A DNA stretch of 13,353 bases from NCBI GenBank assembly GCA_018067055.1, contig JAGPVK010000039.1, positions 1-13,353 on the forward strand, read 5' to 3'. Within the stretch, counting starts at the first letter, position 1. The number at the start of each line of letters is the position of its first letter. This stretch comes from Sphingomonadales bacterium (lineage in GTDB: Bacteria; Pseudomonadota; Alphaproteobacteria; Sphingomonadales; Sphingomonadaceae). Made by a program: the position numbers and the translations under genes. Of this stretch, positions 5,113-12,032 are shown piece by piece. A model generated the notes under the pieces. The model searched no databases. It worked only from the letters and a program-made list of their open reading frames with translations, and was not told where the DNA came from.

Positions 5113-7559
5113 AATTCTCCCTTTCTTGGCTCAAGGCCCATCTCGACACTGATGCCTGTGCGACCGAAATTGCTGAAAAACTGACCAGCATTGGCTTGGA
5201 AATCGAAGGGATGGAAAATCCCGCCGATGCGCTGAGACCCTTTCGCGTGGCGAAAGTGCTTGAAGCGGGGCCGCATCCCAATGCCGACAAGTTGCAATTG
5301 CTTAAAGTTGCTGATGGTGCGGCGGAACCGTGGCAGGTGGTGTGCGGGGCGCCCAATGCGAAAGCCGGGATGATCGGCGTGTTCGGGCCTCCGGGCACCT
5401 ATATTCCGGGCAGCGATTTCACGCTGAAACCCGCAAAAATCCGGGATGTCGAGAGTTTCGGCATGATGTGCAGCTATCGCGAGCTGGAGCTCGGCGATGA
5501 TCATGACGGGATCATCGAATTGCCGGAAAGTGCGGCCAGTGAAGTTGGCACCAGCTATGCCGATTATGCAAAGCTCGACGATCCGGTGTTCGATGTGTCG
5601 ATCACCCCCAATCGTCAGGATTGCATGGGCGTCCGCGGGATTGCGCGCGATCTGGCGGCAGCGGGTCTTGGCTCTCTGAAGCCATTGGACATTGCCAACA
5701 TCGCCCGCAACGGCACTGGCCCGGATGTCCGCACCGACGATCCGGAAGGCTGCCCCGCTTTCTACGCTTGCACAGTCAAAGGCGTGAGCAATGGCGCGTC
5801 GCCTGCCTGGATGCAGGCGCGGCTGAAATCGGCCGGACAGAAGCCGATCAACACCCTGGTTGATATCACCAACTATGTGATGCTCGATCACGGGCGGCCG
5901 CTGCATGTCTATGATGCAGGCAAACTTGCTGGCGGTCTGATTGCCCGCAAGGCGAAGCCGGGCGAGACCGTGCTCGCACTCAACGACAATGAATACACGC
6001 TCGACGAGAGCATGACCGTGATTGCCGATGACAAGGGCGCGCATGATATCGGCGGGATCATGGGCGGCGCGAACACTGGTTCGGACCAGGCCACGACCGA
6101 GGTGCTGATCGAATGCGCCTATTTCACGCCGGAAAATATTGCCAAAACCGGCCAGAAACTGCTGCTGACCAGCGACGCGCGCCAGCGGTTCGAGCGCGGC
6201 GTTGATCCGGCTTTTCTCGATGATGGCCTGGAATTGGCCACTGCGTTAGTACTCGAGCTGTGCGGTGGCACCGCCAGCGCGGTCACTCGCGCCGGAACGC
6301 CGCCGACGGAGCAGCGCACCATATCCTATGACCCGGCCCAATGTCTGGCGCTGGGCGGACTAGATGTCGCGCCGGATCGCCAGACAGCGATTCTCGAAGC
6401 GCTGGGATTTGAGGTCTTGTGTCCCCGCGAAGGCGGGGAACCATCTCCCGATGGTTCCACGACCGAAGCGCGGGAGATGGGCCCCGGCCTTCGCCGGGGA
6501 ACCTGGACGATCACCATTCCGACCTGGCGGCGCGATGTGCAGGGCTGGCAGGATATTGTCGAGGAAATCGTCCGCATCGAAGGGCTGGACACTATTCCCT
6601 CGACCCCGCTGCCCCGCAAGCCGGGCGTCGCCAAACCGACCGCCTCACCCGAGCAGCTGGCCGAGCGCAAGGCCCGCCGGGCTGCGGCCGCGCGTGGGCT
6701 CAACGAAGTGGTCAACTGGAGCTTCATTTCCGAGAAGGAAGCCGCGCCTTTTGGCGGCGGCAACTGGTCGCTGGCCAACCCGATCAGCGAGGATCTCAAG
6801 GTGATGCGGCCCTCGATGCTACCCGGCCTGATCGCCGCTGCCAAGCGCAACAGCGCGCGCGGCGCATCGTCGGTCCGGCTGTTTGAAGTGGGACGCCGCT
6901 ATCTGGAGTCCAGCGAACATCCGACCATCGGCCTGGTGCTGACCGGCGAGAAGACAGCCCGCAACTGGCAGGGCCGCGGAGCGAGCAAGTTTGATGCCTA
7001 TGACGCCAAGGCGGAAGTGCTGGCGATTCTCGAGGCGGCTGGCGCGCCGGTCGACAAGCTGATGGACTTCGGGGAAGCAGGTGACGCTTATCATCCCGGA
7101 CAGTCCGGCACGTTGCGGCTCGGGCCTAAGAAGATTCTTGCCGCTTACGGCGCGCTGCACCCCAATGCTACCAAGGCGTTCGGCCTGAAGGGCGCAGCGG
7201 TCGGCGCGGAGATTTTCCTCGACGCGATTCCGCTGAAGAAGAAGGCGGGCCACATGCGCGACGCCTTTGCACCACCCGCGCTACAGGCCGTTACCCGCGA
7301 CTTTGCCTTCATCGTCGATGCGGATCTGCCAGCAGGCGATCTGGTGCGCGCGGTCAAGGGTGCGGACAAGAAACTGATCACCGATGCGCGGATTTTCGAC
7401 TTGTTCGAGGGGCCGAGTGTGGGAGAAGGCAAGAAGTCGCTGGCGGCGGAAGTTACGTTGCAGCCAACCGACGCGACACTGACCGAAGAGGATCTCAAGG
7501 CACTTTCGGACAAGGTTGTCGCGAGTGCGGCTAAACTCGGTGCGTCGCTACGTGGCTAA
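5109..7559 (+). CDS. pheT: Phenylalanine--tRNA ligase beta subunit with a 28-residue insertion in the B5 domain
   Basis: 816 residues. The order matches bacterial PheT: N-terminal region, OB-fold tRNA-binding domain (about 44-150, [18 protein letters not shown]), B3/B4 editing domain (about 210-390, including [19 protein letters not shown]), B5 domain (about 402-495, with [23 protein letters not shown]), catalytic-like domain, and C-terminal FDX-ACB anticodon-binding domain (about 720-815, [15 protein letters not shown]...). AGGAG at 5097-5101 and the ATGA overlap with pheS support the start. The oddity is residues 438-465 (nt 6420-6503), between ALGFEVL and [12 protein letters not shown], where other PheT proteins need only a short turn. 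The DNA there is a palindromic repeat element of 84 nt (28 codons) that keeps the frame. Without it the protein would be ~788 residues. The enzyme is essential, so the insertion must be tolerated. Confidence 0.97.
6420..6503. repeat. Palindromic repeat element inserted in frame in pheT
   Basis: The left hairpin is CCCCGC-GAAG-GCGGGG (6423-6438) and the right hairpin CCCCGGC-CTTC-GCCGGGG (6482-6499). The two halves are inverted copies of each other (GCGAAGGC near the left, GCCTTCGC near the right). Inside them is a perfect 10-bp inverted repeat, CCATCTCCCG (6441-6450) and CGGGAGATGG (6471-6480). AACCAT/ATGGTT (6439-6444 and 6451-6456) is an alternative small stem. The arrangement, including the GAAG/CTTC hairpin loops, matches the dispersed element at 11300-11385. 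Such elements are normally intergenic in proteobacteria; here it lies inside the B5 domain of pheT. The boundaries are set from where the B5 sequence is interrupted. Confidence 0.85.
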
Positions 7560-7578
7560 GGAAGAAGATTTTGAACGC

Positions 7579-7980
7579 ATGCACCGTTTTATTGGCCATA
7601 TCACGACCTTGCGCTTCAATATAGCTGCCGACTCACCGGTTCATCCCCTCAAAGAGATGGAACGGATCGAACGAGAATTTGGCCGAGCGAACGCCCTCAA
7701 AGGGTTAAAGATGGCCGTCAATGATATGGTTGAAGAGCTCTCTAGGTTTGACGTACCCGCGACCAAACAGCTTGATGCCGAACTGACCGAAATCGGAGCA
7801 ATGACGCTAAGCGAGGCGCGAGCTAGGTTTTCGAAAACACTGAAGCGCGTTTTGAAGCGGGGTGAAATTCTCTCCGAGGAAGAATCTTATCTCGTCAGAA
7901 ACGCCCAAGATTTCCTCCGAGGCAATGACGCCGCGAATTGCCAGCGTTTGCTTGCAGAATTCGAAATCGCACAGATCTGA
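7579..7980 (+). CDS. Small hypothetical protein between pheT and prfC
   Basis: 133 residues from ATG 7579; not recognised. The protein is charged and probably mostly helical (for example HPLKEMERIEREFGRANALKGLKMAVNDMVEELSRF, residues ~23-58), with no membrane segment, signal peptide or catalytic motif visible. The start is uncertain. The frame is open further upstream, with GTG at 7552 (8-bp overlap with pheT) and TTG at 7516. ATG 7579 is preferred because AAGGAAGAAG (7558-7567) lies a little upstream as a possible Shine-Dalgarno, at a rather long distance. G/C is lower than in its neighbours: two 60-base stretches counted by hand give 53%, against about 60% or more in pheT and prfC. It may be translationally linked to pheT. 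It looks like an accessory gene in a core region. Confidence 0.7.
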   Translation: MHRFIGHITTLRFNIAADSPVHPLKEMERIEREFGRANALKGLKMAVNDMVEELSRFDVPATKQLDAELTEIGAMTLSEARARFSKTLKRVLKRGEILSEEESYLVRNAQDFLRGNDAANCQRLLAEFEIAQI

Positions 7981-7994
7981 ACAGAAAAATCATT

Positions 7995-9557
7995 ATGACC
8001 AAACCCCGCCGTACATTCGCGATTATCTCCCACCCCGATGCGGGTAAGACGACGCTGACCGAGAAGCTGCTCTTGAAGGGCGGCGCCATCCATCTCGCCG
8101 GCGAGGTCAAGGCGCGGGGCGATAACCGGCGGGCGCGGTCCGACTGGATGAAGATCGAGCAGCAGCGCGGTATTTCAGTGACCTCCAGCGTCATGACCTT
8201 CGAGCGTAACGGGATTGTTTTCAACCTGCTCGACACGCCGGGCCATGAGGATTTTTCCGAGGATACCTATCGCACGCTGACCGCCGTCGACAGCGCGATC
8301 ATGGTGATCGATGCCGCGTCGGGAATCGAGGCGCAGACGCTGAAACTGTTCGAGGTCTGCCGGATGCGCAACGTGCCGATCATCACCTTTGTCAACAAGG
8401 TCGACCGTGAAGGCCGCGATCCGTTTGAACTGCTCGACGAGGTCGCCGACAAACTGGCGCTCGACGTCTGCCCGATGAGCTGGCCGACCGGTATGGGCGG
8501 ACAGTTTGAGGGCGTCTATGATCTGCAACGTAACCAGCTGCATCAGCCGACCGGCGACAGCAAACAATATGACGGCGTGACCCAGCAATTTACCGGTCTC
8601 GATGATCCGAAACTGGCCGACGTACTCAGCGAAGGCGCGCTTGAGCGGCTGACCAGCGAGGGCGAGCTGGCCAAGGGTGGCTATAGCAGCTTTGATCTCG
8701 AGGCCTATCAGAATGGCGATCTGACGCCGGTCTATTTCGGCTCTGCGCTCAAGCAATTTGGCGTCGAGGAATTGATCGAGGCGATTGCCGATTATGCCCC
8801 CTCGCCGCGTCCGCAGCCGGCGGAACCGGCGCCGATCGATCCGGCGAGCGATGATGTCACCGGTTTCATTTTCAAGATTCAGGCCAATATGGACCCGCAG
8901 CACCGCGACCGGATCGCCTTCATGCGGCTCTGCTCGGGCGAGTTCAAACGCGGCATGAAGCTGACCCCGTCGGGTCTCGGCAAGCCGATCGCAATCCACT
9001 CGCCGATCCTGTTTTTCGCGCAGGATCGCGAAATTGCCGACACGGCGGAACCGGGCGATATCATCGGCATTCCCAATCACGGCACCTTGCGGGTCGGCGA
9101 TACGTTATCGGAAAAGAACCAGGTGCGGATCACCGGACTGCCAAATTTTGCGCCGGAAATCCTGCGCCGGGTGATCCTGCGCGATCCGACCAAGACCAAG
9201 CAATTGCGCAAGGCGCTCGATGACCTTTCCGAAGAGGGCGTGGTCCAGGTCTTCTATCCCGAAATCGGTGCCAACTGGATCATCGGCGTGGTCGGGCAGT
9301 TGCAGCTCGAGGTGCTGGTGTCGCGACTGGAGGCGGAGTACAAGGTCGATGCCTATCTCGAAATGGCGCCGTTCGAAACCGCCCGCTGGATCAGTGGCGA
9401 CGAGGCAACGGTCCAGGCCTTTGCCAATATCAACCAGAGTTCGCTGGCCAGGGACCGCGACAATAATCTGGTGTTTCTGGCGAAATCGGCCTGGGATGTG
9501 AACTATCAGCAAGAACGCAATCCTGACCTAAAGTTCAGCGCGACACGGGAGCGGTGA
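7995..9557 (+). CDS. prfC: Peptide chain release factor 3
   Basis: 520 residues, close to the ~529 of E. coli RF3. ATG 7995 is chosen because MTKPRRTFAIISHPDAGKTT aligns with the RF3 N-terminus; the open frame further upstream is not conserved-looking. The GTPase motifs are in order: P-loop S-H-P-D-A-G-K-T (12-19, Ser in the first position as usual for RF3), QQRGISVTSSVM (switch I, 56-67), DTPGH (80-84) and NKVD (134-137). An EF-Tu-like domain 2 and the C-terminal RF3 domain (QVFYPEIGANWIIGVVGQLQ) follow. RF3 uses GTP to recycle RF1/RF2 from the ribosome after termination. The Shine-Dalgarno is weak. The last 12 codons (NPDLKFSATRER) and the stop are duplicated at 9905-9943, downstream of the next small gene. 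Confidence 0.96.
   Translation: MTKPRRTFAIISHPDAGKTTLTEKLLLKGGAIHLAGEVKARGDNRRARSDWMKIEQQRGISVTSSVMTFERNGIVFNLLDTPGHEDFSEDTYRTLTAVDSAIMVIDAASGIEAQTLKLFEVCRMRNVPIITFVNKVDREGRDPFELLDEVADKLALDVCPMSWPTGMGGQFEGVYDLQRNQLHQPTGDSKQYDGVTQQFTGLDDPKLADVLSEGALERLTSEGELAKGGYSSFDLEAYQNGDLTPVYFGSALKQFGVEELIEAIADYAPSPRPQPAEPAPIDPASDDVTGFIFKIQANMDPQHRDRIAFMRLCSGEFKRGMKLTPSGLGKPIAIHSPILFFAQDREIADTAEPGDIIGIPNHGTLRVGDTLSEKNQVRITGLPNFAPEILRRVILRDPTKTKQLRKALDDLSEEGVVQVFYPEIGANWIIGVVGQLQLEVLVSRLEAEYKVDAYLEMAPFETARWISGDEATVQAFANINQSSLARDRDNNLVFLAKSAWDVNYQQERNPDLKFSATRER
9519..9557 (+). repeat. Direct repeat copy A: present prfC 3' end
   Basis: Copy A of a direct repeat whose partner is at 9905-9943. Bases 9519-9547 are identical to 9905-9933 (29 bp). 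The remaining 12 bases differ only at third codon positions and in the stop codon (CGG/CGC, GAG/GAA, CGG/CGT, TGA/TAA), so both copies encode NPDLKFSATRER and a stop. Together they behave like the left and right attachment sites of an integrated element. Confidence 0.9.
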
Positions 9558-9564
9558 CGGTCAG

Positions 9565-9900
9565 ATGAAGAATATCCAGATCGTTGATGCGGCTGCGAAC
9601 GCGACATTCAGCATATTTCAGGCGACGGAAAGCGAATTCAAACTAATTTTTCCTGCAAATCAGGACATAGAATTCGCGGAAGATTTATTTGAGCGCTTGG
9701 GCAATGACACCGCATATAATCTGCTCATGCCCGTTTGGGACCGACCGATTTTAAAACGAGAAGTAAACGGTCTTCACGGCACATTGTTCTACAATTGGAT
9801 CGACAGAAAAACGAATTACCCTGCATCAAAACGTGAAGTAGACATGGACGAACGGTCTATCAACGAAGCCCAACGCATCCTTTTTCGGTCAAATCGATAA
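9565..9900 (+). CDS. Small AT-rich hypothetical gene inside the prfC 3'-end duplication
   Basis: 111 residues starting with ATG 9565, 7 bp after the prfC stop; not recognised. The protein is soluble-looking, with a hydrophobic/acidic N-terminal half (FSIFQATESEFKLIFP, DIEFAEDLFERLG) and a polar C-terminal part (HGTLFYNWIDRKTNYPASKRE). No catalytic motif, membrane segment or signal peptide is visible. A hand count of 9601-9840 gives 103 G/C in 240 (43%), against 62% in a 60-base stretch of prfC and 70% in one of the MFS gene, so its composition is foreign. It is the only gene between the two copies of the prfC 3' end and is therefore the likely cargo of the 386-bp inserted unit. The Shine-Dalgarno is weak, so translation may depend on coupling to prfC. 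A role in defence or immunity is only a guess. Confidence 0.75.
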   Translation: MKNIQIVDAAANATFSIFQATESEFKLIFPANQDIEFAEDLFERLGNDTAYNLLMPVWDRPILKREVNGLHGTLFYNWIDRKTNYPASKREVDMDERSINEAQRILFRSNR

Positions 9901-9904
9901 CTCA

Positions 9905-9943
9905 AATCCTGACCTAAAGTTCAGCGCGACACGCGAACGTTAA
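9905..9943 (+). pseudogene. Displaced remnant of the prfC 3' end (direct repeat copy B)
   Basis: In the prfC frame this reads NPDLKFSATRER followed by TAA, the same residues as the live prfC terminus at 9519-9557. Homology starts abruptly at the AAT codon; the bases just before it belong to the end of the inserted unit. There is no start codon or ribosome-binding site, so it is a non-expressed fragment. It probably marks the ancestral end of prfC, 17 bp before the MFS gene. Confidence 0.85.
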
Positions 9944-9960: not shown

Positions 9961-11262
9961 ATGGCCAGCAGAAGCACGACCGAGAAAGCCTTTCAGGCGA
10001 TCGTCATCGATGACGAAGGGCGGGTGTGCGCGGAAATCCCGGAAAGCGCCTGCCAGCAGGAACCGGGCAATTTCTTCAAACATGTCGGCGCGCTGGCGTT
10101 GACCAAGAGCGCCGACGGGCTGATTGACCCAAAGCTGGTGCTCAGCTGGCTGATGACATCGCTCGGCGCGCCGGTAGCGCTGATCGGGCTGCTGGTGCCG
10201 GTCCGCGAGGCGGGCGCGTTGCTGCCGCAGCTGCTGACAGCAGGCTATCTTCGGCGTCTGCAGCGCCGCAAATGGGCATGGGCCGTCGGGTCGACGATAC
10301 AGGGTCTGGCCGCCGCCGTGATCGGGCTGATCGCGATCAGCCTGACCGGCGTCGCTGCTGGCTGGGCGATTGTCATGGCGCTGGCGATATTGGCGCTGGC
10401 GCGGAGCGTCTGCTCGGTCTGCTACAAGGACGTGCTCGGCAAGACCATCGACAAGTCGCGGCGCGGCACCGCCACCGGGCTCGCCGGTTCGATCGCCTCG
10501 GTGACCGTGATCGTCTATGCGCTGACCCTGTCCTTCCATCTGGTCGACCGGATGATGCTGGTCATCGGCGGCCTGTTTCTGGCCGGCGGGGCGTGGCTGT
10601 TGAGCGCAGCATTGTTCGCGACTCTCACCGAAAGGGCTGGCGCGACCGACGGCGGCAAATCCGCATTGAAGGAAGCGTGGAAGAATTTCACCTATCTGCG
10701 CGATGATCCGCAGCTGCGCCGCTTCATCCTGACCCGCGGATTGTTGACCGCCACCGCGCTGGCACCGCCGTTCATGATCGCGGTCGGCAGCAGTGCCGGA
10801 GAAGGCTATGACAAGCTCGGCTTTCTGGTGCTGGCCTCGGCGCTGGCCAGCCTGTTGAGCAGCTTTGTCTGGGGCCGCCTGTCGGACCGGTCCAGCCGCA
10901 AGGTGCTGACCTTCTCAGCGATGGTCGCGGCGATCATATTGGCCGCCACCAGCTGGCTCGCCTTCGCCGGCACTCTGGCTAGCGGCTATATATTGCCGGT
11001 GCTGCTGTTCGGGCTGATGATCGCCTATCAGGGCGTGCGGCTTGGCCGGGCGACGCATCTGGTCGATATGGCCGACGAAGACACGCGCGCCGCTTATACC
11101 GCGCTGTCGAATACGGTGATCGGATTACTGTTGCTGGCGGGCGGTGTTTTCAGTCTGGTCGCGAACTGGTTTGGCGGGGAGGTTGTGCTGGCGATCATGG
11201 CGGGGATGAGCGGGCTGGCTATATTGGCGGCTTGGGGACTGGACGAAGTGCAGCGGGGGTGA
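9961..11262 (+). CDS. MFS transporter
   Basis: 433 residues from ATG 9961; a TTG at 9952 in the same frame is less likely. After a ~55-residue soluble N-terminal part, about ten to twelve hydrophobic segments follow, in two groups separated by a hydrophilic central loop (about 222-252, TERAGATDGGKSALKEAWKN and onward), the usual 6+6 MFS arrangement. WGRLSDRSSRKV (304-315) resembles the MFS loop motif GxLxDRxGRR between helices 8 and 9. Inner-membrane permease; the substrate cannot be told. No clear Shine-Dalgarno is visible. Before the insertion at the prfC end, this gene would have begun 17 bp after the prfC stop. It converges on the SUKH-like gene. Confidence 0.85.
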   Translation: MASRSTTEKAFQAIVIDDEGRVCAEIPESACQQEPGNFFKHVGALALTKSADGLIDPKLVLSWLMTSLGAPVALIGLLVPVREAGALLPQLLTAGYLRRLQRRKWAWAVGSTIQGLAAAVIGLIAISLTGVAAGWAIVMALAILALARSVCSVCYKDVLGKTIDKSRRGTATGLAGSIASVTVIVYALTLSFHLVDRMMLVIGGLFLAGGAWLLSAALFATLTERAGATDGGKSALKEAWKNFTYLRDDPQLRRFILTRGLLTATALAPPFMIAVGSSAGEGYDKLGFLVLASALASLLSSFVWGRLSDRSSRKVLTFSAMVAAIILAATSWLAFAGTLASGYILPVLLFGLMIAYQGVRLGRATHLVDMADEDTRAAYTALSNTVIGLLLLAGGVFSLVANWFGGEVVLAIMAGMSGLAILAAWGLDEVQRG

Positions 11263-11299: not shown

Positions 11300-11385
11300 C
11301 GTCACCCCAGCGAAGGCTGGGGCCTAAACCAAGCTCCGGAAACTCACTGCCATTGGGTTGGATCCCAGCCTTCGCTGGGATGACG
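11300..11385. repeat. Intergenic palindromic repeat between convergent genes
   Basis: The left arm (11300-11324) begins CGTCACCCCAGCGAAGG. The right arm (11360-11385) is its near-exact reverse complement (ends GGGATGACG), with about two mismatches or indels. Each arm also folds alone: CCCCAGC-GAAG-GCTGGGG and CCCAGC-CTTC-GCTGGG. This is the widespread proteobacterial repeat whose spurious translation gives VIPAKAGIQ. It fills most of the 185-bp gap between the MFS and SUKH-like genes and could act as a bidirectional transcription barrier, though no T-run follows. Confidence 0.9.
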
Positions 11386-11447
11386 GCTTTCAAATCGCAT
11401 GCGAACCTAAAATCAAATTTGGTGCGACGCAGGAGCATTGATACCGC

Positions 11448-11987
11448 TCAGCCGAACTCATCAGGATTAGCCGTTTGATAGAATGAATAAGGAGTTTCGT
11501 GATCTTCGGCGATGTCTGACCAAAACGAGATACGTTTCACCGTACCAATATTCCACTCATCCATAAACTCATTTCTAAGCCATTGCTCCAGATTCGCGCC
11601 ATAATAGATCGTATCAAAACCGTGCATTGAAAAGACTGGATTACCCGCCGCATTAGGTGAATCAGGTATAAACCTGTGTCCCGATAATGGGATCAAGCGC
11701 GGCTGTCGATCCAGGTACTCGCGCAACACTGTCTTGCAGTCTTCAGTGTTTTGCGGTCGATCTCCAAAATCTGGCCACCAGAAGCCGTTCTCGACGTCGG
11801 AAAGCAACATTTCGAATGGCCATTCGAGGCGCTCTCGAATTTGGTCGTGATCCTTGGTCCAATCGTAACCATCCGGGATCCTTGCTTTGAGCAAGGTGTC
11901 GATCAAATCGGGTGGAAAGCTCAGATTGTGGCGATCTTGCGCTTCGTCCAGTTCTTCTTTCGAATAACCTTGAGCTTCGTTTGACAT
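11448..11987 (-). CDS. SMI1/KNR4 (SUKH)-like protein
   Basis: 179 residues if ATG 11987 is used (MSNEAQGYSKEEL); an in-frame ATG at 12011 would add eight residues, and neither has a clear Shine-Dalgarno. The layout is that of bacterial SMI1/KNR4-like proteins: an N-terminal helix with EELDEAQDRHNLSFPPDLIDTLL, then a beta-rich part with NGFWWPDFGDRP, PRLIPLSGHRFIP, GNPVFSMHGFDTIYYG and WLRNEF. SUKH proteins are commonly immunity proteins against polymorphic or contact-dependent toxins, but many are orphan and uncharacterised. No toxin gene is nearby, so an orphan immunity gene is only inference. It is soluble. It lies directly after metW (21 bp to ATG 12011) on the same strand and is less G/C-rich than metW (31 of 60 in a counted stretch). 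An 11-bp inverted repeat flanks it. Confidence 0.75.
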   Translation of the reverse strand: MSNEAQGYSKEELDEAQDRHNLSFPPDLIDTLLKARIPDGYDWTKDHDQIRERLEWPFEMLLSDVENGFWWPDFGDRPQNTEDCKTVLREYLDRQPRLIPLSGHRFIPDSPNAAGNPVFSMHGFDTIYYGANLEQWLRNEFMDEWNIGTVKRISFWSDIAEDHETPYSFYQTANPDEFG

Positions 11988-12032
11988 GCAGACATTTTGG
12001 CCATGGCTCATCCAAAGGTCAATTTGATTTTG

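Follow-up and report, generated by a model that had tools for sequence, protein, structure and literature searches.

Organization of the prfC 3′ end

The window, by which we mean the whole 13,353-nt stretch of DNA analysed here, contains an intact prfC gene followed by a compact unit, a second copy of the prfC terminus and an MFS transporter gene (Table 1). The full repeat is 39 nt long, comprising the prfC 3′ terminus (9519–9557) and its second copy (9905–9943). An initial annotation of this DNA had described a 29-bp identical repeat at the end of prfC, with only synonymous differences beyond it, and this was borne out: positions 9519–9547 and 9905–9933 are identical at a spacing of 386, the remaining differences (CGG GAG CGG TGA versus CGC GAA CGT TAA) are synonymous, and both copy A and copy B (twelve codons) read NPDLKFSATRER-stop. 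Over 35 nt, the copies match at 33 positions, and the 26-mer core of the repeat occurs twice in the window (at most three mismatches) versus zero times in 200 shuffles. The same annotation placed one gene of low G+C in a 386-bp unit. Indeed, the single listed ORF of at least 60 aa between the copies (9565–9900, 111 aa) has a G+C content of 44%, compared to 59% in the last 400 nt of prfC and 65% in the MFS gene, and the unit is tightly packed, with a 336-nt gene inside 347 nt. The prfC product itself shares 89–98% amino acid identity with the 29 other full-length same-genus matches listed.

Table 1. Features in and around the prfC–MFS interval of the window.
Feature	Coordinates	Strand	Basis
prfC (peptide chain release factor 3), intact, ending in copy A	7995..9557	+	NCBIfam NF001964/TIGR00503 equivalog matches
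Copy A (R0), functional prfC terminus	9519..9557	+	20 nt after the stop unlike all 10 empty sites
Unique part of the inserted unit, 347 nt (386 nt counting a single repeat copy)	9558..9904	+	Missing from 10 empty-site genomes; 44.7% G+C
111-aa cargo gene, precomputed family PF26665	9565..9900	+	725 homologues at E ≤ 0.01
Copy B (R1), displaced native prfC terminus, running into the native MFS leader	9905..9943	+	Comparison with the best empty site
MFS transporter gene, adjoining prfC in 10 empty-site genomes	9961..11262	+	PF07690; synteny
R2, third and decayed prfC 3′-end copy, with an open frame up to a stop at the equivalent position	11379..11441	+	Shuffle tests; translation
Orphan 187-aa ORF, 48% G+C	11448..12011	-	Lies beyond R2

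Empty and filled sites in related genomes

A search of relatives at a loose limit returned a match in 60 of 60 genomes, those in G021 (same genus, incomplete), G041, G047, G054 and G059 being only at the level of other GTPases. The end of prfC is present in 31 of the 32 genus genomes, the window's included, and the MFS gene lies downstream in 14 of these 31. Ten of the 14 have no insert (G001, G002, G003, G007, G009, G011, G015, G024, G028 and G029), the MFS match beginning 12–57 nt past the last prfC codon; the other four, namely the window's genome (G000), G014, G025 and G004, are filled. Both the empty prfC–MFS junctions and the occurrence of other cargo between the same repeats (in G014, G025 and G004) had been predicted in the initial annotation. 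While the window's genome carries the 111-aa gene, the cargo of G014 is a 68-aa ORF with a Fic-domain gene (PF02661), and that of G025 is an S9 peptidase gene, 88% identical to the one in G004 over most of its length. G004 presents an array in the order S9 peptidase (domain PF00326, tested on the G004 protein), prfC-tail copy, Rce1-like protease gene (PF02517, on the other strand) and tail copy. In all four filled genomes a prfC-tail copy directly precedes the MFS gene. The remaining 17 genus genomes have other genes after prfC, with no tail copy in the stretch examined (684 nt for G017). That an insertion took place behind prfC is, in our judgement, very nearly certain. Separately, prfC of the single-contig genome G022 (L066/L068) shows a one-base frameshift ~60 codons before its end, reflecting either a broken gene or a sequencing error.

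Native and foreign termini

Altogether, five extra copies lie between prfC and the MFS gene. Their last 24 coding nt match empty-site alleles at 22–24 of 24 positions; across positions −100 to −40, the match is 14–38 of 60 (ungapped), where empty-site genomes agree with one another at 53–60 of 60. This contrast between end and left part gave Fisher p-values from 0.004 to 5e-10, which are inflated because it was by their ends that the copies had been identified. A diverged but recognisable prfC left part is present in the G014 copy (88% over 78 nt, gapped) and in the inner copy of G004 (77% over 84 nt, gapped), and in the other three copies prfC similarity ends near −40. Left limits range from about 38 to 90 nt, and by our estimate three of the five fall near −40.

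The nucleotides after the stop codon identify the native copy. The native leader is kept in the four copies preceding the MFS gene (15–19 of 20 nt; empty sites among themselves, 13–20), and the corresponding values are 5 of 20 for the inner copy of G004 and 4–8 of 20 for the four prfC-borne copies. From these identities, the terminus attached to prfC has a foreign right flank, and the displaced terminus has the native one. For the window, copy A matches the best empty site at 4 of 20 positions after the stop, where empty sites match one another at 13–20 of 20, and copy B matches it at 23 of the last 24 coding nt and at 16 of 20 after the stop. The earlier suggestion that copy B is the displaced native terminus is thus supported by its native downstream flank. 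In most cases, the exchange point appears to fall within about the last 25–40 nt of prfC. By eye, the unit ends share nothing obvious besides the prfC tail.

Stacked copies and their decay

Beyond the MFS gene, the window contains a further tail copy, R2, which the initial annotation does not mention and whose translation is DDGFQIACEPKIKFGATQEH-stop. Its 39-nt part (11403–11441) matches clade prfC tails at 27 of 39 positions, a value reached by none of 2000 shuffles, and as a 63-nt stretch (11379–11441) it matches at 42 of 63, reached by none of 1000. The first 8 nt of R2 are also the end of a palindrome found after the MFS gene in relatives; without its first 10 positions the match is 33 of 53. 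The palindrome itself, at 11300–11386 on the 3′ side of the MFS gene, has a similar stretch after the MFS gene in several relatives and is one that we take to be REP-like. The orphan 187-aa ORF had no counterpart in Pfam, NCBIfam, PADLOC or PHROGs under the thresholds applied and none in the other 114 prfC downstream loci, and is probably further cargo beyond R2. Of the single-unit picture given in the initial annotation, the insertion stands and the single unit does not, as several successive tail copies are present in each of G004, G014 and the window.

In G004, the inner copy matches at 35 of 39 positions and the outer at 31 of 39. For G014, the copy before the MFS gene has 88% identity over 78 nt, and another, 12 nt past the MFS stop, has 78% over 49 nt; this outer copy scores 45 of 63 (0 of 1000 shuffles), its best 39-nt match being 24, which 93 of 2000 shuffles reached. 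Decay therefore rises with distance from prfC in the three comparable genomes (the window's, G014 and G004), which fits repeated entry at the prfC end. However, the MFS gene is common to all 14 genomes, and outer copies occur in two of them (the window's and G014) at different distances from it, a pattern that plain accretion would not lead one to expect. In a 19-genome tree built from prfC minus its end, G014, G004 and G025 group together (98/94), and the window falls in an unresolved position at the base of the MFS clade. Insofar as G014, G004 and G025 form one clade, the first duplication may be a single event. Four different cargos entered; for the tail copies, two origins represent the simplest count, one origin plus loss being also possible.

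Confinement of the signal to prfC

To measure the repeat beyond the window, the last ~100 nt of prfC were aligned with gaps to the next 6 kb (less at contig ends) at 115 loci. Four loci stood out (scores of 60, 53, 31.5 and 25.5; reversed-control maximum 19.5). The next two scores, 21.0 and 20.0, belong to family genomes, and their matches stop short of the stop codon and were treated as chance. Genome-wide blastn across the 32 genus genomes (E ≤ 3e-4) returned extra prfC tails only beside prfC, in G014, G004 and G025; this search missed copy B of the window and is therefore insensitive to short copies, with weaker matches starting at 0.0011 (23 nt, G018). A 14-mer match on another contig of the window's genome (G000:C34) was set aside as chance.

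The same comparison was extended to 708 crudely called gene ends on the 784-kb contig of G004. Here, prfC scored 53 and the control maximum was 20.0 apart from a run of N, which at 56 gave the sole value above prfC. The next scores were 35.5 and 24.0, from paralogue-like neighbours, and 26.0 and 22.5, from matches inside other genes and short of the stop. The gene ends inspected were those above 21.5, and this comparison would not single out a weak copy such as the one in G025 (25.5). No other gene end on the contig has a copy as clear as that of prfC.

Upstream, the pheT–prfC interval holds an extra 435–964 nt with ORFs in 6 of 30 genomes, the same gene occurring in three; none of these six filled intervals contained a copy of the pheT 3′ end or the prfC 5′ end. 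The window has its own ORF between pheT and prfC (7516–7980; 133–154 aa depending on the start; interval 49% G+C), for which no match was found in the corresponding stretch of 29 relatives, five of which carry other ORFs there, and no flanking repeat was found.

A wider sample comprised 80 of 175 matching family genomes, chosen from the listed places mainly for contiguity. In none of the 80 did a repeat of the genome's own prfC terminus outscore the reversed control (both reached a maximum of 25). A tail-pattern search of 397 family genomes found the pattern in 58, with two copies only in the window's genome; this set includes only 10 genus genomes, the window's among them, and such a pattern misses diverged termini.

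Cargo genes and their neighbours

Cargo of the window and of G014 has a G+C content of 44–45%. The homologues of the 111-aa protein (725 at E ≤ 0.01, of which the best 120 were listed) fall under the precomputed family PF26665, with local Pfam scans giving no match; nor was there a PADLOC, PHROGs or NCBIfam match, and the best solved-structure match (E 0.94) is not meaningful. Its predicted model is of low confidence (mean pLDDT 58.9). The gene had no match in 35 other genus or family genomes searched. Judged by record titles, 64 loci of the family are mostly from Alphaproteobacteria, with one acidobacterium, Granulicella. We considered whether the 111-aa gene is in general a mobile unit that duplicates gene ends, and rejected this, as family members are not generally flanked by repeats. 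For this comparison, 63 of the 64 fetched family loci had long enough flanks and were set against 120 mismatched pairs (control maximum 12): the window scored 29, and four others exceeded 12, namely L088 (24), L076 (14), L132 (14) and L095 (13). The L088 repeat is a local tandem or dispersed repeat, and the L076 string recurs in other family loci. Nothing in the analysis ties the 111-aa gene to the insertion.

The G014 pair has relatives in a genome of another genus, G123, where the Fic gene (76% identical to that of G014) and the 68-aa partner (62%) occur ~480 nt after prfC, behind a 106-aa gene and with no tail copy (L141). The genes found between the core genes prfC and metW differ across the 31 genus genomes and include S9 peptidase; the others are presumably YoeB/YefM-like, YtoQ-like and peroxiredoxin-like genes and a transporter.

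Searches for a recombinase and a parent element

Neither the units nor the regions downstream of prfC at 115 loci (0.7–19 kb each) yielded a recombinase. The motif test used recovers 13 of 20 known integrases of the genus, its short serine-recombinase motif having no positive control, and three motif matches were judged false from the matched strings. Similarly, tblastn with 16 ORFs from known genus integrases gave no match downstream of prfC, and no tyrosine recombinase lay within 30 kb of prfC among the matches listed. The initial annotation had envisaged either a minimal trans-mobilised cassette or the remnant of an island; its premise of a unit with no recombinase gene agrees with these searches, and the mobilising machinery was not found in the 115 loci.

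An intact parent element was likewise not found in the 31 genus loci and 84 others, and no transfer- or phage-gene relic was recognised in the units. Among viral contigs, one search returned zero prfC tails of sphingomonad type and another returned 76 pattern stretches, none of which was confirmed. Plasmid matches numbered 40 records, with 11 of the 20 listed annotated as release factor 3 and a best identity of 70%; phage matches numbered 5 records, at no more than 40% identity. As far as seen, these plasmid and phage matches are RF3 and not sphingomonad tail stubs.

Possible modes of entry

We tentatively propose that, in one clade of the genus, DNA has integrated repeatedly at the 3′ end of prfC. 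Units would enter as circles by crossover in about the last 25–40 nt of prfC, each bringing a replacement terminus that keeps prfC intact and pushing the native terminus downstream. Having no recombinase of their own, they would be moved by an enzyme supplied in trans, or would be left from elements that lost theirs. The layout would then represent CIME-like accretion, i.e. units lacking an integrase that entered repeatedly by a site-specific route. We put a site-specific mechanism a little short of an even chance, with hotspot recombination and partial duplication close behind; this grading reflects that a hybrid structure is demonstrable in just two of the five copies. The restriction to one gene end and the two hybrid copies favour a site-specific process, whereas the absent enzyme and the variable left limits favour the hotspot.

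The hotspot would operate with no site-specific enzyme, and we regard it as a serious possibility. Foreign DNA carrying a prfC end would recombine homologously on one side and illegitimately on the other (HFIR), or a circle would enter by a single crossover; the partial prfC copy would be a by-product, and later cargo swaps would proceed via the flanking core genes and the repeats. HFIR is a described process (PMC3240628, as partly consulted), and duplications made by transformation are known (PMC3784515, likewise in part). In keeping with a hotspot, gene content between prfC and metW varies across the genus mostly with no repeats, as it does between pheT and prfC; a 75%-identical S9 peptidase occupies the same interval of G010 and G031 with no tail copy; and the tail copies differ in their left limit. 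However, clear copies are confined to prfC (1 of 708 gene ends, on the one G004 contig), and none occur at the pheT 3′ or prfC 5′ ends in the six filled pheT–prfC intervals. Moreover, one-sided HFIR should yield a uniform copy, yet two of the five combine a diverged left part with a native right one, and three of the five left limits are estimated to lie near −40. The one-sided layout, then, fits HFIR, but the confinement to prfC (on the contig tested) and the two hybrid copies do not.

Returning to site-specific entry, a version of it, and not its opposite, is that the units are deletion remnants of larger prfC-targeting islands or prophages whose integrase was lost. Tandem units that lack an integrase are known to arise through CIMEs and accretion (PMC5704250; for the Dehalococcoides ssrA islands, PMC3146451; both as far as the portions consulted describe). 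Yet the window unit leaves very little room around its gene (336 of 347 nt), no transfer or phage relics were recognised in the units, and no intact parent was found among 31 genus and 84 other loci, so that we consider this origin rather unlikely. Still less probable is a minimal gene-capture system, in which the last ~25–40 nt of prfC would serve as a landing site, and small circles of one or two genes, with a single tail copy each, would be inserted serially by a recombinase encoded elsewhere. That the repeat arose as an assembly artefact, or as a tandem duplication passed on vertically, is highly improbable. The window's genome is admittedly a fragmented draft of 487 contigs, and the filled genome G025 is rated 7% contaminated. 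Against this, the same architecture with other cargo recurs in three other assemblies, one of only 5 contigs; empty sites are found in single-contig genomes such as G009 and G024; and the protein cluster containing the window's 111-aa product has entries on 17 contigs of up to 1.28 Mb.

These loci present small recombinase-less units at the end of one protein-coding gene, in empty, single and double states among close relatives, and this natural series allows one to ask how genes enter hotspots with no visible mobile element. A trans-acting enzyme for the prfC site, if there is one, would define a new kind of cassette array; in the gene-capture case, the array would be integron-like but built on the end of a housekeeping gene in place of attI/attC. 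If homologous recombination alone is responsible, the short prfC-tail copies would be fossils showing how hotspot insertions join.

Comparison with known systems

Integron gene-cassette arrays consist of small units, mostly of one gene each, in a row. The window resembles them in its small serial units, and decay suggests that the newest lies nearest the anchor. It differs in that the anchor is a coding-gene end and no integron integrase was found: there was no real motif or tblastn match downstream of prfC (motif sensitivity 13/20) nor, upstream, in the window's ORF list. Attempts to fold the copies in an attC-like manner gave results no better than shuffles (z of −0.53 for copy A and −1.37 for copy B on the plus strand; 0.63 and −0.64, respectively, on the minus strand).

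SXT/R391 ICEs integrate at the 5′ end of prfC and are large, conjugative, integrase-bearing elements of gammaproteobacteria. The target gene is shared, but the window has a 347-nt one-gene unit at the 3′ end and is not classed as an SXT/R391 ICE. The open-licence literature on prfC integration, in the portions consulted, deals mainly with SXT/R391, and no prfC 3′-end insertions in Sphingomonadales were found in it.

Hotspots with no mobile elements (PMC5635113) similarly involve an interval flanked by core genes, gene turnover and no recognised recombinase, although a repeated tail of the flanking core gene goes unmentioned in the consulted part of that source. The ssrA islands of Dehalococcoides, as partly described in PMC3146451, are likewise tandem, with direct repeats of the target gene end and variable cargo; they differ in their target, ssrA (tmRNA), and in the serine recombinase module (DsiB) that marks many of them.

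The accretion of CIMEs, ICEs and IMEs, according to the part of PMC5704250 consulted, likewise involves integrase-less units bounded by att copies, including a gene end, and stacked at one site. Here, by comparison, no integrase-bearing relative was found at the site, each unit has one or two genes, and the prfC 3′ end serves as the target. No ICE or IME with the same att site was detected in the 115 loci or in the virus, phage and plasmid searches, where absence is not proof. As in CIMEs, the cargo ORFs and domains include no integration or transfer genes of their own, and direct repeats, in the form of prfC-tail copies with a putative att role, lie on both sides of the units in four genomes.
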